Source: a virus
Direction: 5' to 3' (one strand)
Length of the DNA stretch: 20,661 nucleotides
Virus record (IMG/VR): IMGVR_UViG_3300017917_003348
Span: 1-20,661 of that record
The position numbers were made by a program, and so were the translations under genes. Positions 5,076 through 20,309 of this stretch are shown here, piece by piece; the first letter of the stretch is position 1; each line of letters opens with the position of its first letter. The notes beneath the pieces are model-generated. The model did no database searches. It saw only the letters and a program-made list of their open reading frames with translations, and was not told where the DNA came from.

Positions 5076-5902
5076 AAAAAATTTTAATTACAGGTAGTTC
5101 GGGCTACATTGGTTCGCATCTATGTAAATTATTGGAAAACGATTATGAAATTCATGGTTTAGATATTAAACCTCCGCAAGTTTTTGTAAAAGATTTTCAT
5201 AAAATAAACATTAATACAATGTTTAAATTAGACATAGAGTATGATGCCTGTATACATTTGGCAGCATTGGTTAATGTGGGTGAAAGTGAAATTAAACCTA
5301 TATCATATTATATTACAAATATAAATGGTACAATGAATGTATTAAATAAAATTAAATCTAAAAATTTTATTTTTGCTAGTACAGGAGCAGCAGAATTTTG
5401 TGAAAGCGCATATGGTATAAGCAAACGGGCCGCCGAAGATGTTATACGTGAATATTGTACTGTTCATAACTCTATGCCATATACTATTTTTAGATTTTAC
5501 AATGTAATTGGTAGCACTGTTGTGAAACCTACAAATCCTGATGGATTAATGTATAATTTAATGAAAGCGGTTGATAGTAAAGAATTTACTGTATTTGGTA
5601 ATGATTACAATGAGAGTAAAGATGGTACATGTGTGAGAGACTATGTACACGTGAATGAAATATGTGAAGCATTAAAAATAGCAATAGAACAACCTAGCAA
5701 CAGTGTTGAATGTTTAGGACATGGTGTTGGTCATACTGTTAGCGAAATTGTTGAATTGTTTAAGTCTGTAAACAATGTAGATTTTAATGTTAAATATGGA
5801 CCACGAAGAAAAGGTGATTTACCTGTTAGTGTTTTAAATAATGTATCAAGTTATATGAAAACTTTATACACTATGGAAGACTTGTTAAAGGTTAGTGTTT
5901 AA
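5072..5902 (+). CDS. NAD-dependent nucleotide-sugar epimerase/dehydratase (276 aa)
   Basis: This is an extended short-chain dehydrogenase/reductase similar to GalE. It has an N-terminal GxxGxxG dinucleotide loop (GSSGYIGS, 8-15), HLAALVNVGES and the catalytic YxxxK at Tyr114-Lys118 (YGISK). It also has FRFYNVIGS and the substrate-binding region GTCVRDYVHVNEICEAL. The family interconverts UDP- or dTDP-sugars. At 276 residues it is shorter than GalE (about 330), so the sugar-binding part is reduced. It overlaps the glycosyltransferase gene by 4 nt and probably supplies its donor sugar, by inference from context. Its 3' end overlaps the convergent minus-strand gene by 11 nt. Confidence 0.88.
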   Translation: MKKILITGSSGYIGSHLCKLLENDYEIHGLDIKPPQVFVKDFHKININTMFKLDIEYDACIHLAALVNVGESEIKPISYYITNINGTMNVLNKIKSKNFIFASTGAAEFCESAYGISKRAAEDVIREYCTVHNSMPYTIFRFYNVIGSTVVKPTNPDGLMYNLMKAVDSKEFTVFGNDYNESKDGTCVRDYVHVNEICEALKIAIEQPSNSVECLGHGVGHTVSEIVELFKSVNNVDFNVKYGPRRKGDLPVSVLNNVSSYMKTLYTMEDLLKVSV

Positions 5903-7301
5903 GTAATAATGTACTTAATACACCTGCACTTTTAGCAGTTAAGTCAGGTTCGCCAGGTGTGATTATAACATTGTATTTTAACGGTGTTTCTTTTTCACCG
6001 TCTCTAGTACGATTAGCCCATTCATCATAACTCAATATACTACTAGGGCTTAAGTCATACTCTTTAGCTAATCTTTGTTTTAGTTCAGGTAACTTGTCAG
6101 GTATCACTTGCCATTGACCTTGCGGACCCTTAACTAGATTTTTCTTTTCATCCTTAACTAATAAATCATAAAATAGATTGCTAGGAACAATACGACTGTT
6201 CTTTGTTTTTTCTAGCCCAGGGTCTGCTGCTTTAACTTTCTTTTTTTGTGAAGTGTGTGCCCCCTCACTCCAATTAATCATAAAGTTATCTGGCTTATCA
6301 CCTAATGCAACGTCTGCTACCTTTGTATAGGCATAGAAGTCTACATCTGGTAAACTCTTTGCTAATGCGAATGCCATATCTACATATTCAGGGCTAAAGA
6401 AGTCACCGGCATCATGCCAACGTATACTTACTTTATAGTCGCCCTTTTTACCTTTTGCTACTTCTTTGCTTATTTCTGAATTTAATTGTTTAAAGAAACC
6501 GTCTGGATCATTTAATAGGTATGTAAGAATGCGTCCATCACTTAACCATGGTCCTTGGAACTGTACCTTACCGCCCTTCATAGCAAAACAATCTACTTTA
6601 CAACTGCCTGCACCTGGACATGTATTTACAACAATCAATTCATTTGTATTCTCATCTAACGCTATACCAACAAGTGCAGCGAATCCAACATTAAAGAATT
6701 GTTCATCTGTACCATCACTATGTTTCATCTTCTCATTCTTTTTAAGAAGTGATTTTGGTCTTTCTTTTAATGCCTCTTTGATAGCATCAGTATCATATCT
6801 TTTACCGGCTTCGTTATAGTATTTTATTACACTACTACGATGTATGTACGGTAAATTGTATTTGTCTGTTTTTTTCTTTTCTTGATTACGAATACGGTCT
6901 AGATAATCATCTAGTTCCTTACCTTTTAACTCACGTGTATCAGCAGGTAGTTTGGTTGCTTCACTTATATCTTTTAGTTTTAAACCAACAAATCTTTCTA
7001 TATATTCTTTACCATCTCTAGAAAGTGGCTTAAATTTTCCATCTTTATGGAGTATTAAAGAAGGATTGTCCTTGAAACGTACAAAATGATATTTTCCTGT
7101 ATTTTTATCTTTTCTTAGATCAGGTTGCTGACTATAAATGTCATCATAACTAAATTTAGCTTCATCTACCTCTTCATCTGATCCTGGTTCCTCACCCATT
7201 TCACTTTTAGCGATAAATTGTTGAGGTGTCATAACCTGTATGCCCTTTGGGGCTCCGGGTAACCAGGGCTCAGTGCCTTCCATTAACTCTTTAAAATTCA
7301 T
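5892..7301 (-). CDS. Gene product 88 (GP88)-like protein (469 aa)
   Basis: The region from about residue 204 onward matches the phage and plasmid GP88 family. It contains FNVGFAAL, a cysteine cluster CPGAGSCKVDC (Cys228, Cys234, Cys238), RWHDAGDFFS (294-303), DFYAYTK and a C-terminal ITPGEPDLTAKSAGVLSTLL. The family's biochemical role is not established to my knowledge. The C-x5-C-x3-C cluster suggests a metal or Fe-S site, as inference. About 200 residues before this domain, charged and partly repetitive in Lys, are unassigned. It is one of only two minus-strand genes here and converges on the epimerase with an 11-nt overlap. A weak GGA lies before its ATG. A possible minus-strand late box lies at 7355-7362. 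Confidence 0.8.
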   Translation of the reverse strand: MNFKELMEGTEPWLPGAPKGIQVMTPQQFIAKSEMGEEPGSDEEVDEAKFSYDDIYSQQPDLRKDKNTGKYHFVRFKDNPSLILHKDGKFKPLSRDGKEYIERFVGLKLKDISEATKLPADTRELKGKELDDYLDRIRNQEKKKTDKYNLPYIHRSSVIKYYNEAGKRYDTDAIKEALKERPKSLLKKNEKMKHSDGTDEQFFNVGFAALVGIALDENTNELIVVNTCPGAGSCKVDCFAMKGGKVQFQGPWLSDGRILTYLLNDPDGFFKQLNSEISKEVAKGKKGDYKVSIRWHDAGDFFSPEYVDMAFALAKSLPDVDFYAYTKVADVALGDKPDNFMINWSEGAHTSQKKKVKAADPGLEKTKNSRIVPSNLFYDLLVKDEKKNLVKGPQGQWQVIPDKLPELKQRLAKEYDLSPSSILSYDEWANRTRDGEKETPLKYNVIITPGEPDLTAKSAGVLSTLLLKH

Positions 7302-7362: not shown

Positions 7363-7376
7363 TACTTTTGTATATT

Positions 7377-8408
7377 ATGCATTCATTCAACAACGACACT
7401 AAACGCATTGGTTTTGCTTGCAAATGGGCCCATATCAATAAAAAGGGTGAAATTTCTAGCACTGAGGGTCTTAACACAGGCGGCACAACCTATGCTTGGG
7501 CTAAACGCAATAATCCAAAACTAGTTGAAGAAAAGATTATTGATGTAGCAAAAAGTAACATTGTCAATACACATAATCTAGTTAAAAAGGTAGCTGAATT
7601 GCCCGAACCATTGCGTATGGTTCGTCTTACTAGTGATATGTTTTCATTCTATACTATGGATGAATACAAATACTTTTGGAAAAGTAAGGATGTGCAAGAT
7701 AGTCTAGAGCGTTGGATGGCACCTATAGGTGAAACTGCACGTGCTAATAATGTGCGCTTGAGTTTTCATCCAGACCAATTCGTTGTATTGGCTAGTGATC
7801 GTGAAGAAGTAGTAAATAAGAGTATCGAGGAGTTTGAATATCATGTCGATATGGCACGCTGGATGGGATACGGCAAGTCGTTCCAGGACATTAAGATTAA
7901 TGTACATATTAGTGGACGACTTGGGCCAGACGGCATTAGGAAGGCATATAAACGTCTTAGTGTAGAGGCAAGGAATTCATTGACTATCGAGAACGAAGAA
8001 ATTAGTTATGGATTGGATGATTGCCTTACTCTATCTGATTTGGTTCCAATTGTATTGGATGTTCATCATCACTGGGTCCGTGAAGGTGAGTACTTGGATG
8101 TCCATGACGAGCGCGTTAGTAGGGTTATTGATAGTTGGCGCGGTATTCGCCCTGCTATGCATTATAGTGTCAGTAGGGAAGATATTTTGGTTAATCATGA
8201 TACCAATACTCTACCTTGTCGTAACACTTTGATTGAAAGTGGACATAACAAACAAAAACTACGGGCACATAGCGACTATTATTGGAACAGTGCAACAAAT
8301 AAATGGGCATTGACATTCTATGATAAATTCGATATTATGTGCGAAAGCAAGGCTAAAAATCTAGCCAGCTTTAAACTATACGAGGATTATGTTAATGGGA
8401 CTATTTGA
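7377..8408 (+). CDS. uvsE: UV damage endonuclease, UvsE/UVDE family (343 aa)
   Basis: UVDE enzymes are TIM-barrel metal nucleases that nick DNA 5' of UV photoproducts and start alternative excision repair. Metal-binding regions are visible in order: LSFHPDQFVVL (His131), NVHISG (His177), ENEE (205-208), DVHHHW (His230-232), MHYSVS (His262) and DIMCESKAKN (Glu323). The N-terminus KRIGFACKW is typical. The length is normal for the family. I chose the ATG at 7377; an in-frame TTG at 7368 would add three residues. No Shine-Dalgarno sequence is visible before either. A TTGACA promoter with a palindrome precedes it. The 3' end overlaps the next gene by 14 nt and contains that gene's likely promoter. 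Confidence 0.93.
   Translation: MHSFNNDTKRIGFACKWAHINKKGEISSTEGLNTGGTTYAWAKRNNPKLVEEKIIDVAKSNIVNTHNLVKKVAELPEPLRMVRLTSDMFSFYTMDEYKYFWKSKDVQDSLERWMAPIGETARANNVRLSFHPDQFVVLASDREEVVNKSIEEFEYHVDMARWMGYGKSFQDIKINVHISGRLGPDGIRKAYKRLSVEARNSLTIENEEISYGLDDCLTLSDLVPIVLDVHHHWVREGEYLDVHDERVSRVIDSWRGIRPAMHYSVSREDILVNHDTNTLPCRNTLIESGHNKQKLRAHSDYYWNSATNKWALTFYDKFDIMCESKAKNLASFKLYEDYVNGTI
8310..8338 (+). promoter_or_regulatory. Internal sigma70-type promoter at the end of uvsE
   Basis: TTGACA (8310-8315), a 17-nt spacer and TATTAT (8333-8338, five of six) lie inside the 3' end of uvsE. Transcription would start near 8345, about 50 nt before the next ATG. Promoters buried in the preceding gene also occur before the exonuclease and ligase genes. 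Confidence 0.5.
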
Positions 8409-8802
8409 TAAGTTTTTTAAGAAGAAACCAGAACCTCCTAAGGTAGAAGAAAAACCTAAGAAACCTAAAGAAAAAAAAGTTGAACTTTCTGACAAAGAAA
8501 AGGCAACAATGGCAGGAGAGCCGTATATCAACATTACTAAAGTTGAAATAGACCCAAATAACATCAATAACGGCGCATTTGAATTAGATTTTAATGATAA
8601 GTTTGTAATGAATCTGATTCGTGCAGGTTATAAAATAAGACCTGATGACACTGATAATGACATTGTAGACCGTTGGTTTCAAACAGTTTGTAGAAACATT
8701 GCACTTGAACTGTATGAACAACAACAAGCAGATCCAATCAATCGTGATTTGCGAATTGTAAGTAAACGTGACATAGGAAATGGGCGAACTGAAGTCAGTT
8801 AA
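8395..8802 (+). CDS. Conserved phage protein of unknown function (135 aa)
   Basis: The N-terminus MGLFDKFFKKK is followed by a Lys/Pro/Glu-rich linker to about residue 40. A compact conserved part contains ATMAGEPYINI, FELDFNDKFVMNLIRAGY, DIVDRWFQTVCRNIALELYEQQ and a final GRTEV. I recall close relatives in T4-like phages, including cyanophages, always as hypothetical proteins. The ATG at 8395 is preferred over 8389 because CGAGGA (8381-8386) then lies at a normal distance. The gene overlaps uvsE by 14 nt. A hairpin with a T-run lies 36 nt beyond the stop. Confidence 0.82.
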   Translation: MGLFDKFFKKKPEPPKVEEKPKKPKEKKVELSDKEKATMAGEPYINITKVEIDPNNINNGAFELDFNDKFVMNLIRAGYKIRPDDTDNDIVDRWFQTVCRNIALELYEQQQADPINRDLRIVSKRDIGNGRTEVS

Positions 8803-8805
8803 TTC

Positions 8806-8833
8806 TTGCTAATTAATCTGTTTTATCTATAAT
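8806..8833 (+). promoter_or_regulatory. Promoter for the 8894-11017 cassette
   Basis: A perfect -10 box TATAAT (8828-8833) is preceded after 16 nt by TTGCTA (8806-8811), four of six matches to TTGACA. Transcription would start at about 8840, within the first bases of the strong hairpin that follows. Confidence 0.5.
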
Positions 8834-8837
8834 AGAG

Positions 8838-8878
8838 GTTGTATTGTGAATGGTTCATAATACAACTTTTTTATTTTT
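8838..8878 (+). terminator. 13-bp hairpin with T-run: terminator or attenuator
   Basis: Bases 8838-8850 pair with 8854-8866 over 13 bp, with one G-T pair and a TGG loop. T runs follow at 8867-8872 and 8874-8878. It is a good intrinsic terminator for the uvsE operon. It also lies just after a TATAAT box, so a transcript from that promoter would begin with this hairpin before reaching the ATG at 8894. It could therefore act as an attenuator or as a 5' mRNA-protecting stem. Confidence 0.75.
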
Positions 8879-8893
8879 ACAAAGGAAACTAAA

Positions 8894-10093
8894 ATGGCAA
8901 AATTATCGCCTACCCAAAGTTCCTTTCCTTGGACCGATGTGCCCAAAGGAGAGGCTATTGATATCTCTAAAATCAAGAATCGTCTTGACAGCAAACGCCT
9001 AAAGACTTCTAAACCCAAAACTCTTGCACAGAGTCTTGCGGATCTTGAAAAAAACCCTATCATTGTCAATGCAATTGAAGCATTGAAAAAGAAAAAGAAA
9101 AAATTTGACCCAAAGAAAATTGGTGTCGCAAAAAAACTTAAAATTGGTCGTGTCACTTTTTCGGAAGAAACTCAACGACTGGTAATTGTCAAGCACGTTG
9201 CTGACATTATGGAAAATTGTCAGGAAGAATTACTTAGTCCAGCCTTTTCCACTGTTAGTGCTGATAACAAAACTAATCCTCTTTTTGATACACAACATGG
9301 CATGCACGTAGTTGCATTATTTGCAAAGCATGGTTTGTGGGAGGGTGTTGATCCTAAGAAATGGGAAGATTTTGAGTATCCCTTCTTTGTAGTTAACAAT
9401 AGTGATATTGCATTTGCAAACGAAGCCGCTTATCACAGAAACGGTAAAGGTCAGAAAAAGTGGACTGCATTTGATTTCCATAGAATCAAAGTTGCAGGAG
9501 TTCGCCAACATGGTTCTAAAGATAAAGACTATGTTGATGCCGAAAAACGTCAGTCTATTTGTGAAAAACATGAGGCTATCCCTGTTCCTGCAAGTGATCC
9601 TCAAAAAGGTAAGGCAGGCACATTGGATCGTATTGACGCAGTTTACAATTGGAGTCTTAAGACACTAGATTTTATTCTTGCTACTCATAAGAAATACTGG
9701 CATGGAACTAAGATTGATAGTGCTGCTTTTGGTTTGTACGGACATTTGTTTGATAACATGAGAGCAAAAAATATTCCTACAACAGGTCCTGATTGGGACG
9801 AGTTTTTGGATAACTTTCATGCTATCATTAAAAAGTGTTTTACTGATTTGGCTACATTGCGTAAAGCAACTGAAAATGCACACGTACCATGGCACGAGAC
9901 CGCATATCCAAATATCAAAAATCATAAACTAAATTCAACCAATTGTGCATTGTCAATTGTATTGAAAATTTATAAGCGTCTAGGGGGAACTCATCCTCTT
10001 ACTAATGACGAGAATGATTTTATCTATGCTGGTCATGATCTTTATGACTTTCTAGATCCTATTGATGTACATGAGGCTGTGAATAATGCCTAA
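8894..10093 (+). CDS. ParB/DGQHR-like protein (399 aa)
   Basis: After a basic N-terminal region (many Lys, about 25-95), residues 100-205 look like a ParB/Srx-type domain. They contain RLVIVKHVADIM, LSPAFSTVSADNK, the signature DTQHGMHVVAL (starting at Asp132, compare DGQHR) and then FFVVNNSDIAFANEA. ParB-like domains bind nucleotides, and some cut or bind DNA. The Gly to Thr and Arg to Gly changes in DTQHG make activity uncertain. The C-terminal half is mostly helical and unassigned. The RBS AAAGGAAA is at 8881-8888. The gene overlaps the next by 8 nt and heads a three-gene cassette. Confidence 0.6.
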   Translation: MAKLSPTQSSFPWTDVPKGEAIDISKIKNRLDSKRLKTSKPKTLAQSLADLEKNPIIVNAIEALKKKKKKFDPKKIGVAKKLKIGRVTFSEETQRLVIVKHVADIMENCQEELLSPAFSTVSADNKTNPLFDTQHGMHVVALFAKHGLWEGVDPKKWEDFEYPFFVVNNSDIAFANEAAYHRNGKGQKKWTAFDFHRIKVAGVRQHGSKDKDYVDAEKRQSICEKHEAIPVPASDPQKGKAGTLDRIDAVYNWSLKTLDFILATHKKYWHGTKIDSAAFGLYGHLFDNMRAKNIPTTGPDWDEFLDNFHAIIKKCFTDLATLRKATENAHVPWHETAYPNIKNHKLNSTNCALSIVLKIYKRLGGTHPLTNDENDFIYAGHDLYDFLDPIDVHEAVNNA

Positions 10094-10526
10094 AATAAAA
10101 CTACCCGAAAAATGCGGGTGGTTTTATATACTCCAACTCCGTCACAACGGAGTTTGGGGTTTTGGAATCACCTCTAGCAAAAACATTAAAAATTATTTGC
10201 AAAAGCGTTATATCAATCCTGGTGCTAATAAAGATCAGGTATTTGATAATCTTTATTATGGTAAATTGTCTCAAATTAGAGCATTGGAAAACCATATTAA
10301 AAATGAATGGAATGATAAACTTTTAGTTTTGTTTACAGATAAATTAGAATGGTTCGATCCTGTACACAAAATAGATGGTAAGCAAATTATTAACTTTACA
10401 GAAGCAAGGTGTAAAAATTCTTACCCAGATATCTACAGAGTAAAACAAGAATATTTACCATTTAGTCCTGCAAATACCTTTAAAAATATAAAGGATGATC
10501 CTGATAAGTTTTTGGAGGTTCTATGA
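10086..10526 (+). CDS. GIY-YIG-like protein (146 aa)
   Basis: The N-terminus GWFYILQLRHNGVWGFGIT (11-29) resembles the two strands of a GIY-YIG nuclease, with WFY for GIY and FGIT for YIG-T. A helix ends in LQKRY (38-42), where the family has an Arg. A later helix, IRALENHIKNEW, offers Glu68 as the catalytic acid. The match is by pattern only; the first motif is degenerate, so the domain could be inactive or misassigned. It lacks the DNA-binding zinc fingers seen in the homing endonuclease at 19416. It overlaps the upstream gene by 8 nt and the downstream gene by 4 nt. Confidence 0.5.
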   Translation: MPKIKLPEKCGWFYILQLRHNGVWGFGITSSKNIKNYLQKRYINPGANKDQVFDNLYYGKLSQIRALENHIKNEWNDKLLVLFTDKLEWFDPVHKIDGKQIINFTEARCKNSYPDIYRVKQEYLPFSPANTFKNIKDDPDKFLEVL

Positions 10527-11017
10527 AATTTCTACATGAATTGGTTGATTATCTTCATGGCGATAAAATTTATGAGGTAAGAAGTTACATCATGTCAGAA
10601 ATTGCCAAAACTACTGACAACAATAAAGGTCATTTTTGGGAGAAATGTTTGTCAAAAAAAATGAGTGACCATACCAAACTACTTGGCAGAAATGCTTTTG
10701 GAAGAGATTTTTCCGATAATACCGATGCCAAATTTGCCACATATTACAGGAGGACAGATGGGGTTTTTGAGGCCTCAGTTGGTAATATCCGTAATAAAGT
10801 GGGTGACCTAAGAGTATGCCTTTGCTTACCCGGTGAGCATTATCATAGATTGTTTTTTCTATATATACCTTACGAGGCATACCAAAGATTTACTATGGGA
10901 AGTGACGCACTTAAATTTGGGTTAAGTCCTAGGGGATCTCCTACCGGAAAGTTAACCAAATATTTAACTTCTTTTGAAGGTGTATGTAGACCAAAGGTTG
11001 ACATTAATTCAAAATAG
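10523..11017 (+). CDS. Unidentified conserved-looking protein of the ParB-like/GIY-YIG-like cassette (164 aa)
   Basis: I do not recognise a named family with certainty. The core SDNTDAKFATYYRRTDG, then FEASVGNIRNKVGDLRVCLCLPG and RLFFLYIPYEAY, has an alternating strand pattern. Asp, Glu and Lys residues are placed as they could be in a PD-(D/E)XK-like fold. This is a guess. Near the C-terminus ALKFGLSPRGSPTGKL is Gly/Pro-rich and looks conserved. The start ATGA overlaps the preceding stop, and GGAGG (10514-10518) is a clear RBS. The promoter for the exonuclease lies in its last 20 bp. Confidence 0.6.
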   Translation: MKFLHELVDYLHGDKIYEVRSYIMSEIAKTTDNNKGHFWEKCLSKKMSDHTKLLGRNAFGRDFSDNTDAKFATYYRRTDGVFEASVGNIRNKVGDLRVCLCLPGEHYHRLFFLYIPYEAYQRFTMGSDALKFGLSPRGSPTGKLTKYLTSFEGVCRPKVDINSK

Positions 11018-11026
11018 TAGTATACT
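10998..11026 (+). promoter_or_regulatory. Strong sigma70-type promoter for the exonuclease gene
   Basis: TTGACA (10998-11003), a 17-nt spacer and TATACT (11021-11026) overlap the end of the preceding gene. The predicted start is near 11033. Its spacer resembles those of the promoters at 15758 and 16074. Confidence 0.75.
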
Positions 11027-11061: not shown

Positions 11062-12072
11062 ATGAATTACGCACTCATAGACACTGCCAATACCTTCTTT
11101 CGTGCCCGACACGTTGCAAGTCGCAATACCGAGCTTAGTGAAAAAATCGGTATGGCACTACATCTTACACTAGCATCCATTAATCAAGTGGTTCGTAACC
11201 ATAAAATTGACCACGTGGTATTCTTATTGGAGGGGAAATCGTGGAGGAAGTCCTTCTATAAACCATACAAGGCTAATCGCAAACTTGATGAAAGTGCGAT
11301 GACCGACGCAGAGATTGAAGAAAATAAAATGTTTTGGGGAACATACGAAATGTTTACCCAATTCTTGCGTGAAAAGACCAATGTATCTGTACTGCGTGAA
11401 CCTAACGCAGAGGCAGATGATTTGATTGCCCGTTTTATTCATCTACACCCAAATGACAAACATTACATCATTTCTTCTGATAGTGATTACGTTCAGCTTA
11501 TTAATGAAAACGTGTTCCAATACAACGGAATTTCTAATGAACTCATCACAATCAATGGATACTTCAAAGATAATGGCAAACCAGTAATTGATAAGAAAAC
11601 AAATGAACAAAAACTTTTGGAAGATCCGCAATATCTACTTTTCAAAAAATGTATGCGTGGCGATGCTACTGACAACGTGTTTAGTGCGTTTCCAGGCGTT
11701 CGTGAGAAAGGTAGCAAAAATAAAGTCGGACTTGTCGAGGCATATGCGGACCGTAATCGTCAGGGTTTTGTTTGGAACAATCTAATGTTGCAACGCTGGG
11801 TAGATCATGAAGGTGTTGAACATCGTGTGCGTGATTGTTACGAGCGTAACCGAACACTTATTGACTTGACTGCACAACCCGATGATGTTAAAATGAACGT
11901 TGACAATGCTATTCGCACTGGCGTACGTGTCAATACTACACCTCAAGTTGGCGTTCATTTTATGAAATTCTGTGGAAAATATGAACTTAATAAAATTAGT
12001 GAGCAGGCTGAAACGTATAGTAAATGGCTTAATAGTCCGTATACAGGTAAAGTACATGAACAATCTACATAA
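11062..12072 (+). CDS. T4 RNase H/FEN-type 5'-3' exonuclease (336 aa)
   Basis: Enzymes of this family remove RNA primers and 5' flaps during lagging-strand synthesis, so that ligase can seal the nicks; a ligase gene is present at 18123. Metal-binding acids are visible: ALIDTANTFFRAR (Asp7), AEADDLIA (Glu117, Asp119, Asp120), SSDSDY (Asp140, Asp142) and GDATDN (Asp201, Asp204). The helix-hairpin-helix-like segment FPGVREKGSKNK follows. The length fits T4 RNase H (about 305) and cyanophage homologues. The N-terminus matches the family at the ATG chosen, although no Shine-Dalgarno is visible. It has its own promoter and overlaps the next gene by 17 nt. Confidence 0.92.
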   Translation: MNYALIDTANTFFRARHVASRNTELSEKIGMALHLTLASINQVVRNHKIDHVVFLLEGKSWRKSFYKPYKANRKLDESAMTDAEIEENKMFWGTYEMFTQFLREKTNVSVLREPNAEADDLIARFIHLHPNDKHYIISSDSDYVQLINENVFQYNGISNELITINGYFKDNGKPVIDKKTNEQKLLEDPQYLLFKKCMRGDATDNVFSAFPGVREKGSKNKVGLVEAYADRNRQGFVWNNLMLQRWVDHEGVEHRVRDCYERNRTLIDLTAQPDDVKMNVDNAIRTGVRVNTTPQVGVHFMKFCGKYELNKISEQAETYSKWLNSPYTGKVHEQST

Positions 12073-18122: not shown

Positions 18123-19457
18123 ATGTCTGCAAGTTGGATTACTAAACTGCAAGAGAGTGACAGTCGCCTACACAAGGAAGATGTAATTAAACAAGCATTA
18201 GAGGCAAGTGTCCTTGGTAGTATCAATGCTCAAATCTTTTTGGGTTTGCTTAAAGCCTGCTATAATCCATTTGTAACTTTTAATGTGCGTCAAGTGCCCG
18301 ATACAGTGGGTATTGTTGATGCTGAAAATCCTTGGCATGATTTTAATGACTTGCTACAAAGTCTAAGTGAGCGTAGACTAACGGGTAATGCTGCCCGTGA
18401 TGCTATTGAAGAAATGTCATGTCGTTTTGATAGTGTTGAATGGAATAACTTTTGTGCTCCTGTGATTCGCCGTGATATGCGGGCAGGCATTAGCGACAAG
18501 ACTATCAACAAAATTTGTAAAGGTACTGAATACGAGATTCCTGTATTCGGTTGTCAACTTGCTACCAATAGTGAGAATCGCCCCGAAATGAAGGGCACTA
18601 AACGCCTTGAGCCTAAACTTGACGGTGTGCGTGTATTGATGTTTGTGATTCCTGGCGCAAGTGAAAATGTAACCACAATCTGCTATAGTCGTAATGGTAA
18701 AGTGTTTGACAACTTTACACATATTGAAGAACAAGTTAAAGAAAACTTTACCAAACTTGTGCGCGGTCATATGAACGCATTGATTGATGGTTTTGTGCTT
18801 GATGGCGAAGTGATTGGTAATACATTCCAAGAACTTATGCGACAGGCACGGCGTAAAGAAAATGTTCAGGCTACTGATAGTGTATTCAACATCTTTGATA
18901 TCATTCCTCTTGTTGACTTTAGACGAGGTTATTGGAATGCTCAACTAGAAAAGCGTATTAAGATACTAGAAAATCTAAGGCATGTCATTGATGATATGCC
19001 TAATGTAGAATTGTTGCCTCATATCATGGTTGACCTTGATACAGCAGCAGGTCGCGACCAACTTGATCGGTATGCTAAGGACATGGTTAATCAAGGCTTT
19101 GAAGGCATTATGGTGAAAGCCGTAGACGCCCCATATGAATGTGCTAGGAATACCCATTGGCTAAAAATCAAACCTGTTTATGATTACGACCTGACAGTAA
19201 TTGGTGTTGAAGAGGGGACTGGCAAAAACGCAGGTCGTATGGGTGCTCTTGTATGCGAGGGAGTTGATGATGGCAAATACATCACAGTCAATGTCGGGTC
19301 TGGGTATACAGATGAGGAACGCCAATCTTACTGGGATGATAAGAGTCTAGTTATTGGACAAACCGCGGTAGTGATGGCGGATGCTACAACTCAAAACCAG
19401 GATGGTAGTTATAGTTTAAGGTTCCCGAGATTCAAGTATTTCAGAACGGATAAGTAA
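18123..19457 (+). CDS. ATP-dependent DNA ligase, T4 gp30-like (444 aa)
   Basis: The ligase seals nicks using ATP, through an enzyme-AMP intermediate on the motif I lysine. Motif I is PKLDGVR with Lys165. Further nucleotidyltransferase motifs are VLDGEV, EGIMVK (327-332) and WLKIKP (346-351, Lys348 and Lys350). Residues 1-150 form a helical DNA-binding domain with RRDMRAGISDKTIN. About 90 residues after motif V form the C-terminal OB domain (YDYDLTVIGVEEGTGKNAGR). The length is near that of T4 ligase (487). It works with the exonuclease at 11062 in lagging-strand completion. Its 3' end overlaps the convergent homing endonuclease by 42 nt. Confidence 0.94.
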   Translation: MSASWITKLQESDSRLHKEDVIKQALEASVLGSINAQIFLGLLKACYNPFVTFNVRQVPDTVGIVDAENPWHDFNDLLQSLSERRLTGNAARDAIEEMSCRFDSVEWNNFCAPVIRRDMRAGISDKTINKICKGTEYEIPVFGCQLATNSENRPEMKGTKRLEPKLDGVRVLMFVIPGASENVTTICYSRNGKVFDNFTHIEEQVKENFTKLVRGHMNALIDGFVLDGEVIGNTFQELMRQARRKENVQATDSVFNIFDIIPLVDFRRGYWNAQLEKRIKILENLRHVIDDMPNVELLPHIMVDLDTAAGRDQLDRYAKDMVNQGFEGIMVKAVDAPYECARNTHWLKIKPVYDYDLTVIGVEEGTGKNAGRMGALVCEGVDDGKYITVNVGSGYTDEERQSYWDDKSLVIGQTAVVMADATTQNQDGSYSLRFPRFKYFRTDK

Positions 19458-20309
19458 CCCAGTGAAGCGGCAGTTATTAAAATGATGCCGTTTCATTACC
19501 GGTCCTTTACCTACCCTACTACACATAGGACAAGTCAATACATGCTCATTGTTTCTTGGTTTCTTAATTTTGGGTAATTTAACTTTCTGTTTTTTTGGGA
19601 AGAAACTTGTGACAATACCAATAATTTGAAGATAAAGTTTTTCCAAATCATCTTCTGGTAGTTGATACCATCCTCTACCCATTTTTGTAGTTTTTCTCAG
19701 TTGTCTTAAACTTTTATCAGGTATACCCTTACAAACTTCTCTGATTTTTTTCACTATATTTCGTGTGGACTTAGATGAATTTGTATTTGCTATTTTCTTT
19801 ATTGTATTCCTTGAAACACCTTTCCCGCAATTATTAAAGTGAAAACGCATCATTGCCGAAATACCACCGGTCTTATTACAGTGTGGACAGGTTACTATTT
19901 CTTTTGGTTTTCTCTTTTTTGCTTTAATGTGTTCTGGTTGAGATTTACCTTTACACGCAGGCGTGACACCTTTTCTTGCCGCCGAACTTATTCTCGGATC
20001 AATGCCCTTTCCGTTACCGCGATTTAAGTAATCTTCTCTTGATACAGCATCAAGTTTAGTTAATACTCTGTGTTCCCATTCCCTTGCCTCATTTACCCTA
20101 TTTTTATTTGTAAATGTTTGTCTTATTTCTATAATGTCCGGTAAACCATTATCTTTGATGTATTCAGTTACATACTTACTTGAAGTAAAATATGTTACAA
20201 ATAAATCAGACGGATGACACCGTTTTGAGTAACGGACACCGTAATAATTCATATTTGTTTTAGACCAACGGATCCTATATGTATAGGGAATGTTTGTATA
20301 AATAGTCAT
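19416..20309 (-). CDS. Seg-like GIY-YIG homing endonuclease with two zinc fingers (297 aa)
   Basis: These mobile enzymes cut DNA lacking their gene, which is then copied in by repair. The N-terminal domain has YRIRWSKTNMNYYGVRYSK (11-29), the degenerate GIY/YIG pair, then LFVTYFTSSKYV (36-47) as in phage Seg-like enzymes. EAREWEH (74-80) supplies the catalytic Glu. Two matching zinc fingers follow, C-x2-C-x12-H-x3-C, at 141-161 and 260-280. They would give DNA recognition. Lys/Arg-rich linkers separate them. The RBS AAAGGAG (complement 20317-20323) is strong. The gene overlaps the ligase end by 42 nt and seems inserted between the ligase gene and its terminator. Confidence 0.88.
   Translation of the reverse strand: MTIYTNIPYTYRIRWSKTNMNYYGVRYSKRCHPSDLFVTYFTSSKYVTEYIKDNGLPDIIEIRQTFTNKNRVNEAREWEHRVLTKLDAVSREDYLNRGNGKGIDPRISSAARKGVTPACKGKSQPEHIKAKKRKPKEIVTCPHCNKTGGISAMMRFHFNNCGKGVSRNTIKKIANTNSSKSTRNIVKKIREVCKGIPDKSLRQLRKTTKMGRGWYQLPEDDLEKLYLQIIGIVTSFFPKKQKVKLPKIKKPRNNEHVLTCPMCSRVGKGPVMKRHHFNNCRFTGLLIRSEILESREP
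19463..19495 (+). terminator. Hairpin after the ligase gene
   Basis: TGAAGCGGCA (19463-19472) pairs with TGCCGTTTCA (19486-19495) with one G-T pair, 6 nt after the ligase stop. Only three T residues lie in the 3' arm and no T-run follows, so it is a weak terminator or a 3' stabilising stem. It lies inside the antisense homing endonuclease gene. Confidence 0.35.
20297..20304 (+). promoter_or_regulatory. Late box match on the plus strand
   Basis: An exact TATAAATA reads rightward in the first codons of the minus-strand endonuclease gene. It could drive the gene at 20440, but a terminator at 20343-20380 lies between them. It may be a chance match (codons for Ile-Tyr-Thr on the other strand). 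Confidence 0.25.

Follow-up and report, generated by a model that had tools for sequence, protein, structure and literature searches.

A co-inherited pair of ParB-like and GIY-YIG-like genes, a candidate two-component nuclease, in a cargo slot of jumbo phages related to PA5oct

To our knowledge, the known restriction factors with a ParB fold, GmrSD and SspE, rely on HNH nucleases and occur in bacteria, and the ParB-like domain of SspE is presumably a DUF262 domain. GmrSD is a type IV restriction system composed of GmrS, with a DUF262 (ParB/Srx) fold, and the HNH protein GmrD (PMC4619093), and SspE combines a phosphorothioate-sensing GTPase with an HNH nuclease that is licensed by GTP hydrolysis (PMC13251355). 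In the open-access literature, we found no described system in which a ParB-like protein and a GIY-YIG nuclease are encoded by adjacent genes. The catalytic set of GIY-YIG nucleases consists of the Tyr of GIY, the Tyr of YIG, an Arg, and a Glu, and one member of the fold, Slx1, needs Slx4 as its partner.

In the present work, we examine three overlapping genes, A, B, and C, in a 20,661-nucleotide stretch of viral DNA (IMG/VR record IMGVR_UViG_3300017917_003348; hereafter, “the window”). A first-pass annotation had read the trio as one system with a ParB-like first member, a GIY-YIG-like second member, and a third of unassigned fold. Our analysis shows that the pairing of A and B is real, the two genes forming a co-inherited, obligate-looking unit, and that C is modular. 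The pair lies between a small virion structural protein gene (vsp) and a 5′-3′ exonuclease gene (exo), in a slot that holds other cargo in related phages.

Genomic setting and control elements

The window is probably part of the genome of a jumbo phage, a distant relative of PA5oct. Its exo has its closest annotated-phage relatives in the PA5oct group of Pseudomonas jumbo phages (51%, ~287 kb), in which vsp adjoins exo and a QueE gene lies upstream, as in the window; homologous contigs extend to 258 kb and more. The window carries QueD- and QueE-like genes, which are consistent with a modified genome but are not proof of one. Positions 1511-2862 and 5892-7301 hold these QueD (PTPS) and QueE-like genes together with a GP88-family protein (PF17338), possibly genes for 7-deazaguanine DNA modification. 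Just upstream of the slot is a gene for a UvdE-type UV endonuclease (7368-8408; PF03851, E 2.1e-38), and at 629-1429 an APS-kinase-like P-loop domain is fused to a cytidylyltransferase-like domain, possibly serving nucleotide or NAD metabolism. On the minus strand, positions 19416-20309 encode a protein of 297 aa that, judged by eye, is similar to a free-standing GIY-YIG homing endonuclease carrying a zinc ribbon; its sole match in Pfam was a weak one to a zinc ribbon.

Table 1. Genes and control elements of the slot and its flanks, in window coordinates.
Feature	Position	Strand	Remarks
vsp, small virion structural protein gene	8389..8802	+	bounds the slot on the left; phrog_13349 E 2.7e-10; flank kept in nearly all loci
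A-B promoter, sigma-70-type, TTGCTA-16 nt-TATAAT	8806..8833	+	10/12 consensus matches
Leader hairpin, 17 pairs, then T run	8834..8870	+	abuts -10 box; MFE -17.6, z -4.9
Gene A, 399 aa, ParB/Srx (DGQHR)-like	8894..10093	+	QR 94-95, DTQHG 132-136, NG 183-184
Gene B, 146 aa, GIY-YIG-fold putative endonuclease	10086..10526	+	8-nt overlap with A
Gene C, 164 aa, probable PD-(D/E)XK (restriction-enzyme-like) nuclease	10523..11017	+	4-nt overlap with B
exo promoter-like site, TTGACA-17-TATACT	10998..11026	+	11/12 matches
exo, 5′-3′ exonuclease, T4 RNase H-like	11062..12072	+	right boundary of the slot; PF02739 E 2.3e-19, phrog_107 E 6.2e-36; flank conserved

The open reading frames of the trio have exactly the coordinates and overlaps that the first-pass annotation had given them, and the promoter-hairpin and exo promoter between which it had placed them were also recovered (Table 1). 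Upstream of A, a promoter matching the consensus at 10-12 of 12 positions is present in 44 of 54 distinct loci, mostly with a spacer of 17 nt, against a mean best match of 8.6 in shuffles; this suggests that the A-B cassette is probably expressed from its own sigma-70-type, host-type promoter. A covarying leader hairpin is present in some A-B cassettes. Across eight homologous leaders, 9 of the 17 pairs have both partners changed, with a covariation score of 0.555 versus 0.28 when shuffled and at most 0.16 when slid, so we regard the hairpin as real. Its position within the presumed transcript would allow it to act as an attenuator, a terminator, or a stabiliser of the 5′ end. The dN/dS values of about 0.09 (A), 0.075 (B), and 0.11 (C) indicate purifying selection on all three genes, and they are rough because synonymous sites are near saturation.

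A coupled pair and a modular third gene

Although a search of 50,697 annotated phages matched none of the window's A, B, and C, many relatives were found in IMG/VR. The A proteins form two very divergent types, type 1 (window-like) and type 2 (about 22-25% identical), and both lie directly 5′ of a B homologue. In a collection with 61 distinct A-B pairs from uncultured phages, B never occurred without A, and A occurred without B once, at a locus (L111) with another possible nuclease gene in front. A broad alignment of B proved too variable for scanning; scanning with a narrower one gave only copies linked to A. In most of the 61 pairs the start of B overlaps the stop of A by 4, 8, or 11 nt, and no broken A or B was seen among 53 and 56 distinct full-length copies, respectively, away from contig ends.

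The two proteins have also diverged together: the correlation of A and B distances (rho) is 0.83 overall and 0.90 and 0.96 within the two types, with a permutation maximum of 0.15. The corresponding values are -0.04 for A and exo and 0.38 for vsp and exo. Since the distances of A correlate with those of B and not with those of exo, the pair is exchanged as a cassette relative to its flanks. A pattern search for relatives of A in bacterial genomes returned none and so gives, at that sensitivity, no evidence for a bacterial origin, and the sole matches of type-2 A proteins among annotated phages were ParB-like genes in phages of the Lachnospiraceae type, whose annotation shows no GIY-YIG partner.

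Protein A is assigned to the ParB/Srx (DGQHR)-like proteins by way of its divergent homologues and synteny, a placement supported by prediction. The window protein itself matched no ParB profile in Pfam/PHROG-type searches; it is tied to the type-2 homologues by 22-27% identity (E down to 4e-17) and by synteny. The resemblance proposed by the first-pass annotation is borne out by the type-2 homologues, which match the ParB-like family phrog_1033 (E 1.7e-6 and 1.6e-5) over a span that includes the QR and the DGQH region, and which match DUF6551 weakly. Among 19 divergent A proteins, Q94, R95, H135, N183, G184, and R204 are invariant. The DTQHG motif noted earlier at 132-136 is present in the window and appears as DGQHT in type 2 and as DGQHN, NAQHT, or DGFHH elsewhere; the His is found in all and the Asp in nearly all. 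The Arg of DGQHR/DGQQR is absent from all A proteins aligned, with G or T at that place, and its loss makes NTPase activity of A doubtful.

Protein B probably has a GIY-YIG-like fold and is a putative nuclease. The AF2 model has a pLDDT of 91, and its nine best matches in the PDB are GIY-YIG Slx1 structures (individual E 0.07-0.6), the tenth being UPF0213, with HIGLE also listed. Profile comparison places B near the endonuclease family phrog_681 (E 2.2e-4 for window B, 4.9e-8 for the best family member); the Pfam GIY-YIG profile PF01541, searched with an E cut-off of 10, did not hit the window record. The degenerate signature with Glu68 described by the first-pass annotation is confirmed in that Y14 and E68 are invariant, and Y14/G27/E68/K72 invariant or nearly so, among 23 divergent B proteins. 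The conservation of these residues, together with D132/H135 of A, across divergent homologues indicates that the motifs are not chance matches. In B, however, the second Tyr of the signature is replaced by K or G and the usual Arg varies, being Asn in some proteins, so that catalysis, plausible from the residues kept, may be altered or lost.

Further searches with A and B were negative. Neither protein matched DUF262 or HNH/DUF1524 in Pfam, NCBIfam, or PADLOC; PADLOC and NCBIfam gave nothing credible, with no PADLOC defence model matched. Sequence profiles of A and B against the PDB gave nothing useful, the matches to p300 and an FGFR substrate being due to chance.

Gene C stands apart from this pair. 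In 18 of 107 distinct loci it is present where A-B is absent; elsewhere it lies before A or after B (after B in the window), and in one lineage (L017) it carries an in-frame stop beside an intact A-B. Its distance correlation with A is poor (0.19, n=7). A C homologue is also found away from the slot, where an rIIA-like ATPase gene of 720 aa lies downstream of it (L108:4001-4462, and likewise in L109 and L110). We therefore reject the trio as a single functional unit on the grounds that C occurs alone, changes position, and is broken next to an intact A-B. The strict coupling claimed by the first-pass annotation holds for A-B, where the junction is conserved, and fails for C, since only a few genomes have the B-C junction; homologues living apart, which that annotation had named as evidence against a single system, are found for C but not for A-B.

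The fold of C, left unassigned earlier, most resembles PD-(D/E)XK restriction enzymes, though weakly. The model (pLDDT 74) gave restriction enzymes as the best and many of the leading Foldseek matches (Eco15I, NhoI, PvuII), at a best E of 0.055 and a TM of about 0.4, with unrelated flavoenzymes among the weak matches; among predicted viral structures its matches were two phage proteins, both uncharacterised (E 2.5e-7 and 2.6e-5). Residues E40, D62, D65, D68-x-K70, and K92 are invariant in 18 divergent C proteins, which thus keep a D...(D/E)xK pattern with a helix Glu, in a D62-D68 spacing that is short for the PD-(D/E)XK fold. These residues are also where the C profile shows a weak alignment with the CdiA-CT EC869 nuclease. 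From model and residues combined, C is probably a PD-(D/E)XK nuclease and separate cargo.

Slot cargo and candidate functions of A-B

To describe the slot, we used a sample of loci anchored on the exonuclease, independent of A, B, and C, in which contigs were counted without deduplication. Among 65 loci with both flanks, A-B is present in 26 and C in 9, and 9 are empty. With two named phages added, 10 of 67 flanked loci are empty, Pseudomonas phage Cassandra among them; the slot is empty in PA5oct-like phages. The A-B cassette is thus present or absent among relatives at a fixed vsp-exo site, where loci that do not carry it are empty or hold other cargo. Over all samples, this cargo includes an HNH-NUMOD3 homing-type gene, HNH-like proteins, a PD-(D/E)XK-Dam fusion, a DEAD/ResIII-like helicase, and N6/N4 methyltransferases, which stand alone or often have a REase-like ORF (judged by eye) in front. 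The vsp-exo slot is a restriction-modification hot spot in related jumbo-phage contigs.

Several occupants may be recorded individually. Slot methyltransferases (PF01555 or Dam), often after a REase-like ORF, are found in L010, L078, L086, L153, L174, L177, L187, L191-L193, and L196. A common 195-aa slot protein (L046:3329-3916, with relatives in L007, L131, and L168) has no Pfam match and by eye shows a GIY-YIG-like KVGMS...R pattern. In L018 (5958-9604; also L020, L021, L028, L030, and L032), about 3.5 kb on the minus strand is inserted between B and exo and encodes a 627-aa protein that by eye looks like a subtilase whose C-terminal end is of phage tail type. An apparent mutual exclusion of A-B and methyltransferases (0/26 versus 9/39, Fisher p 0.009, exonuclease-anchored) is not relied on, because the loci are non-independent and L010 and L078 carry both.

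Our preferred reading, to which we give an even chance, is that A-B is a two-component DNA nuclease directed against host or competitor DNA and carried as interchangeable slot cargo. The ParB/Srx-like A would probably be a nucleotide- and/or DNA-binding specificity or licensing subunit that licenses or targets B, and B would form a complex with it and do the cutting through its GIY-YIG domain. The two would be made from their own host-type promoter, presumably early. The target may be DNA that lacks the phage’s own marks, either the host chromosome or a competing phage, and the phage genome would be spared through modification, QueD- and QueE-like genes being present in the same window. The pair would then be one of several interchangeable cargoes, nucleases or restriction-modification genes, that jumbo phages related to PA5oct carry in a fixed slot, with C as a separate PD-(D/E)XK nuclease cargo of the same slot. 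Control of a nuclease by a ParB-fold subunit has precedents in GmrS and, through GTP hydrolysis, in SspE. A survey of jumbo phages put forward the idea that phages with modified DNA attack the DNA of the host or of superinfecting phages, and reported deazaguanine and Mom systems in PA5oct (PMC7824862).

The leading alternative, which we judge unlikely though well within reach, is a selfish cassette of the homing type, in which B, with A as its DNA-binding partner, would cut cassette-less relatives at or near the vsp-exo junction, be copied by repair, and exclude the alleles of rivals. A-B always sits in the same slot, with empty alleles in the 10 loci above, Cassandra included, and is exchanged horizontally relative to its flanks; fixed-site presence and absence fits homing as well, a homing-type HNH-NUMOD3 gene shares the slot, and phage homing genes cluster near essential genes (PMC10448857). 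Against homing stand the two coupled genes, with a ParB-like partner in place of a fused DNA-binding domain, and the methyltransferases and REase-methyltransferase pairs of the same slot. Frameshifts and stops have been described in ICP1 as a homing-gene signature, yet more than 50 distinct copies of A or B include no decayed one.

An improbable alternative is a recombination or repair factor, in which B would be a structure-selective, partner-dependent nuclease like Slx1 working with the adjacent 5′-3′ exonuclease. Slx1 provides the closest solved folds to B, the neighbours include the exonuclease, UvdE, and a ligase, and Uri/GIY-YIG proteins have been proposed as jumbo-phage resolvases (PMC7824862). 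However, A-B has its own promoter, evolves independently of exo, and is found in fewer than half of the exonuclease-anchored loci; other genomes have other cargo in its place, including restriction-modification genes. Least probable of all is a regulatory or partition pair, in which the ParB-like A would bind DNA to regulate or to segregate it and B would be a catalytically dead GIY-YIG module: the degenerate signature of B and the annotation of phrog_1033 as a ParB-like partition protein would suit it, but Glu68 and Tyr14 are invariant in the 23 divergent B proteins, no ParA-like partner was noticed nearby, and the slot is nuclease-rich.

The intactness of A and B and their restriction-modification company favour the two-component nuclease over homing, though only moderately. 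More tentatively still, and as a possibility short of that reading, A and B may be a ParB-like sensor and a GIY-YIG nuclease, split over two genes, that destroy DNA lacking or bearing particular marks, which would make them a new phage-borne restriction architecture and an exchangeable weapon cassette in a jumbo-phage restriction-modification slot. If true, a ParB-like protein and a GIY-YIG nuclease, obligate-looking partners swapped together between jumbo phages, would form a new pairing. A slot common to homing nucleases and restriction-modification pairs would also be a place to seek phage-versus-phage weapons, and phages with and without the A-B cassette could be compared in co-infection.

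Comparison with known systems

Protein C shares with PD-(D/E)XK enzymes of the PvuII/NhoI/Eco15I type its predicted core, its D...DxK pattern, and its size, but the similarity is weak (best E 0.055) and no cognate methyltransferase lies beside C in the window. The B protein shares its predicted GIY-YIG fold with the Slx1 of Slx1-Slx4 and would share its dependence on a partner protein; no relation was found at the sequence level, however, the partners are unrelated, and the role of Slx1-Slx4 is in eukaryotic repair. Free-standing homing endonucleases of phages (T5orf172/GIY-YIG and HNH classes; PMC10448857) resemble A-B in having a GIY-YIG-type nuclease, a fixed intergenic site near conserved genes, and presence/absence variation, whereas A-B consists of two genes with a separate ParB-like partner, and its copies stay intact.

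Like A-B, GmrSD couples a ParB-fold protein to a nuclease, can be encoded by two adjacent genes, and is found among restriction-modification genes. In contrast to GmrSD, the putative nuclease of A-B is GIY-YIG-like rather than HNH/DUF1524, Pfam detects no DUF262 in A, the motif Arg is lacking, and the pair is phage-borne. SspE may be a mechanistic analogue, in which a nucleotide-switch domain licenses cutting; it is a single fused protein with an HNH nuclease and phosphorothioate recognition, whereas A-B is two genes with a putative GIY-YIG-like nuclease. With no match to DUF262 or HNH, A-B falls outside the GmrSD/SspE class while possibly working alike.
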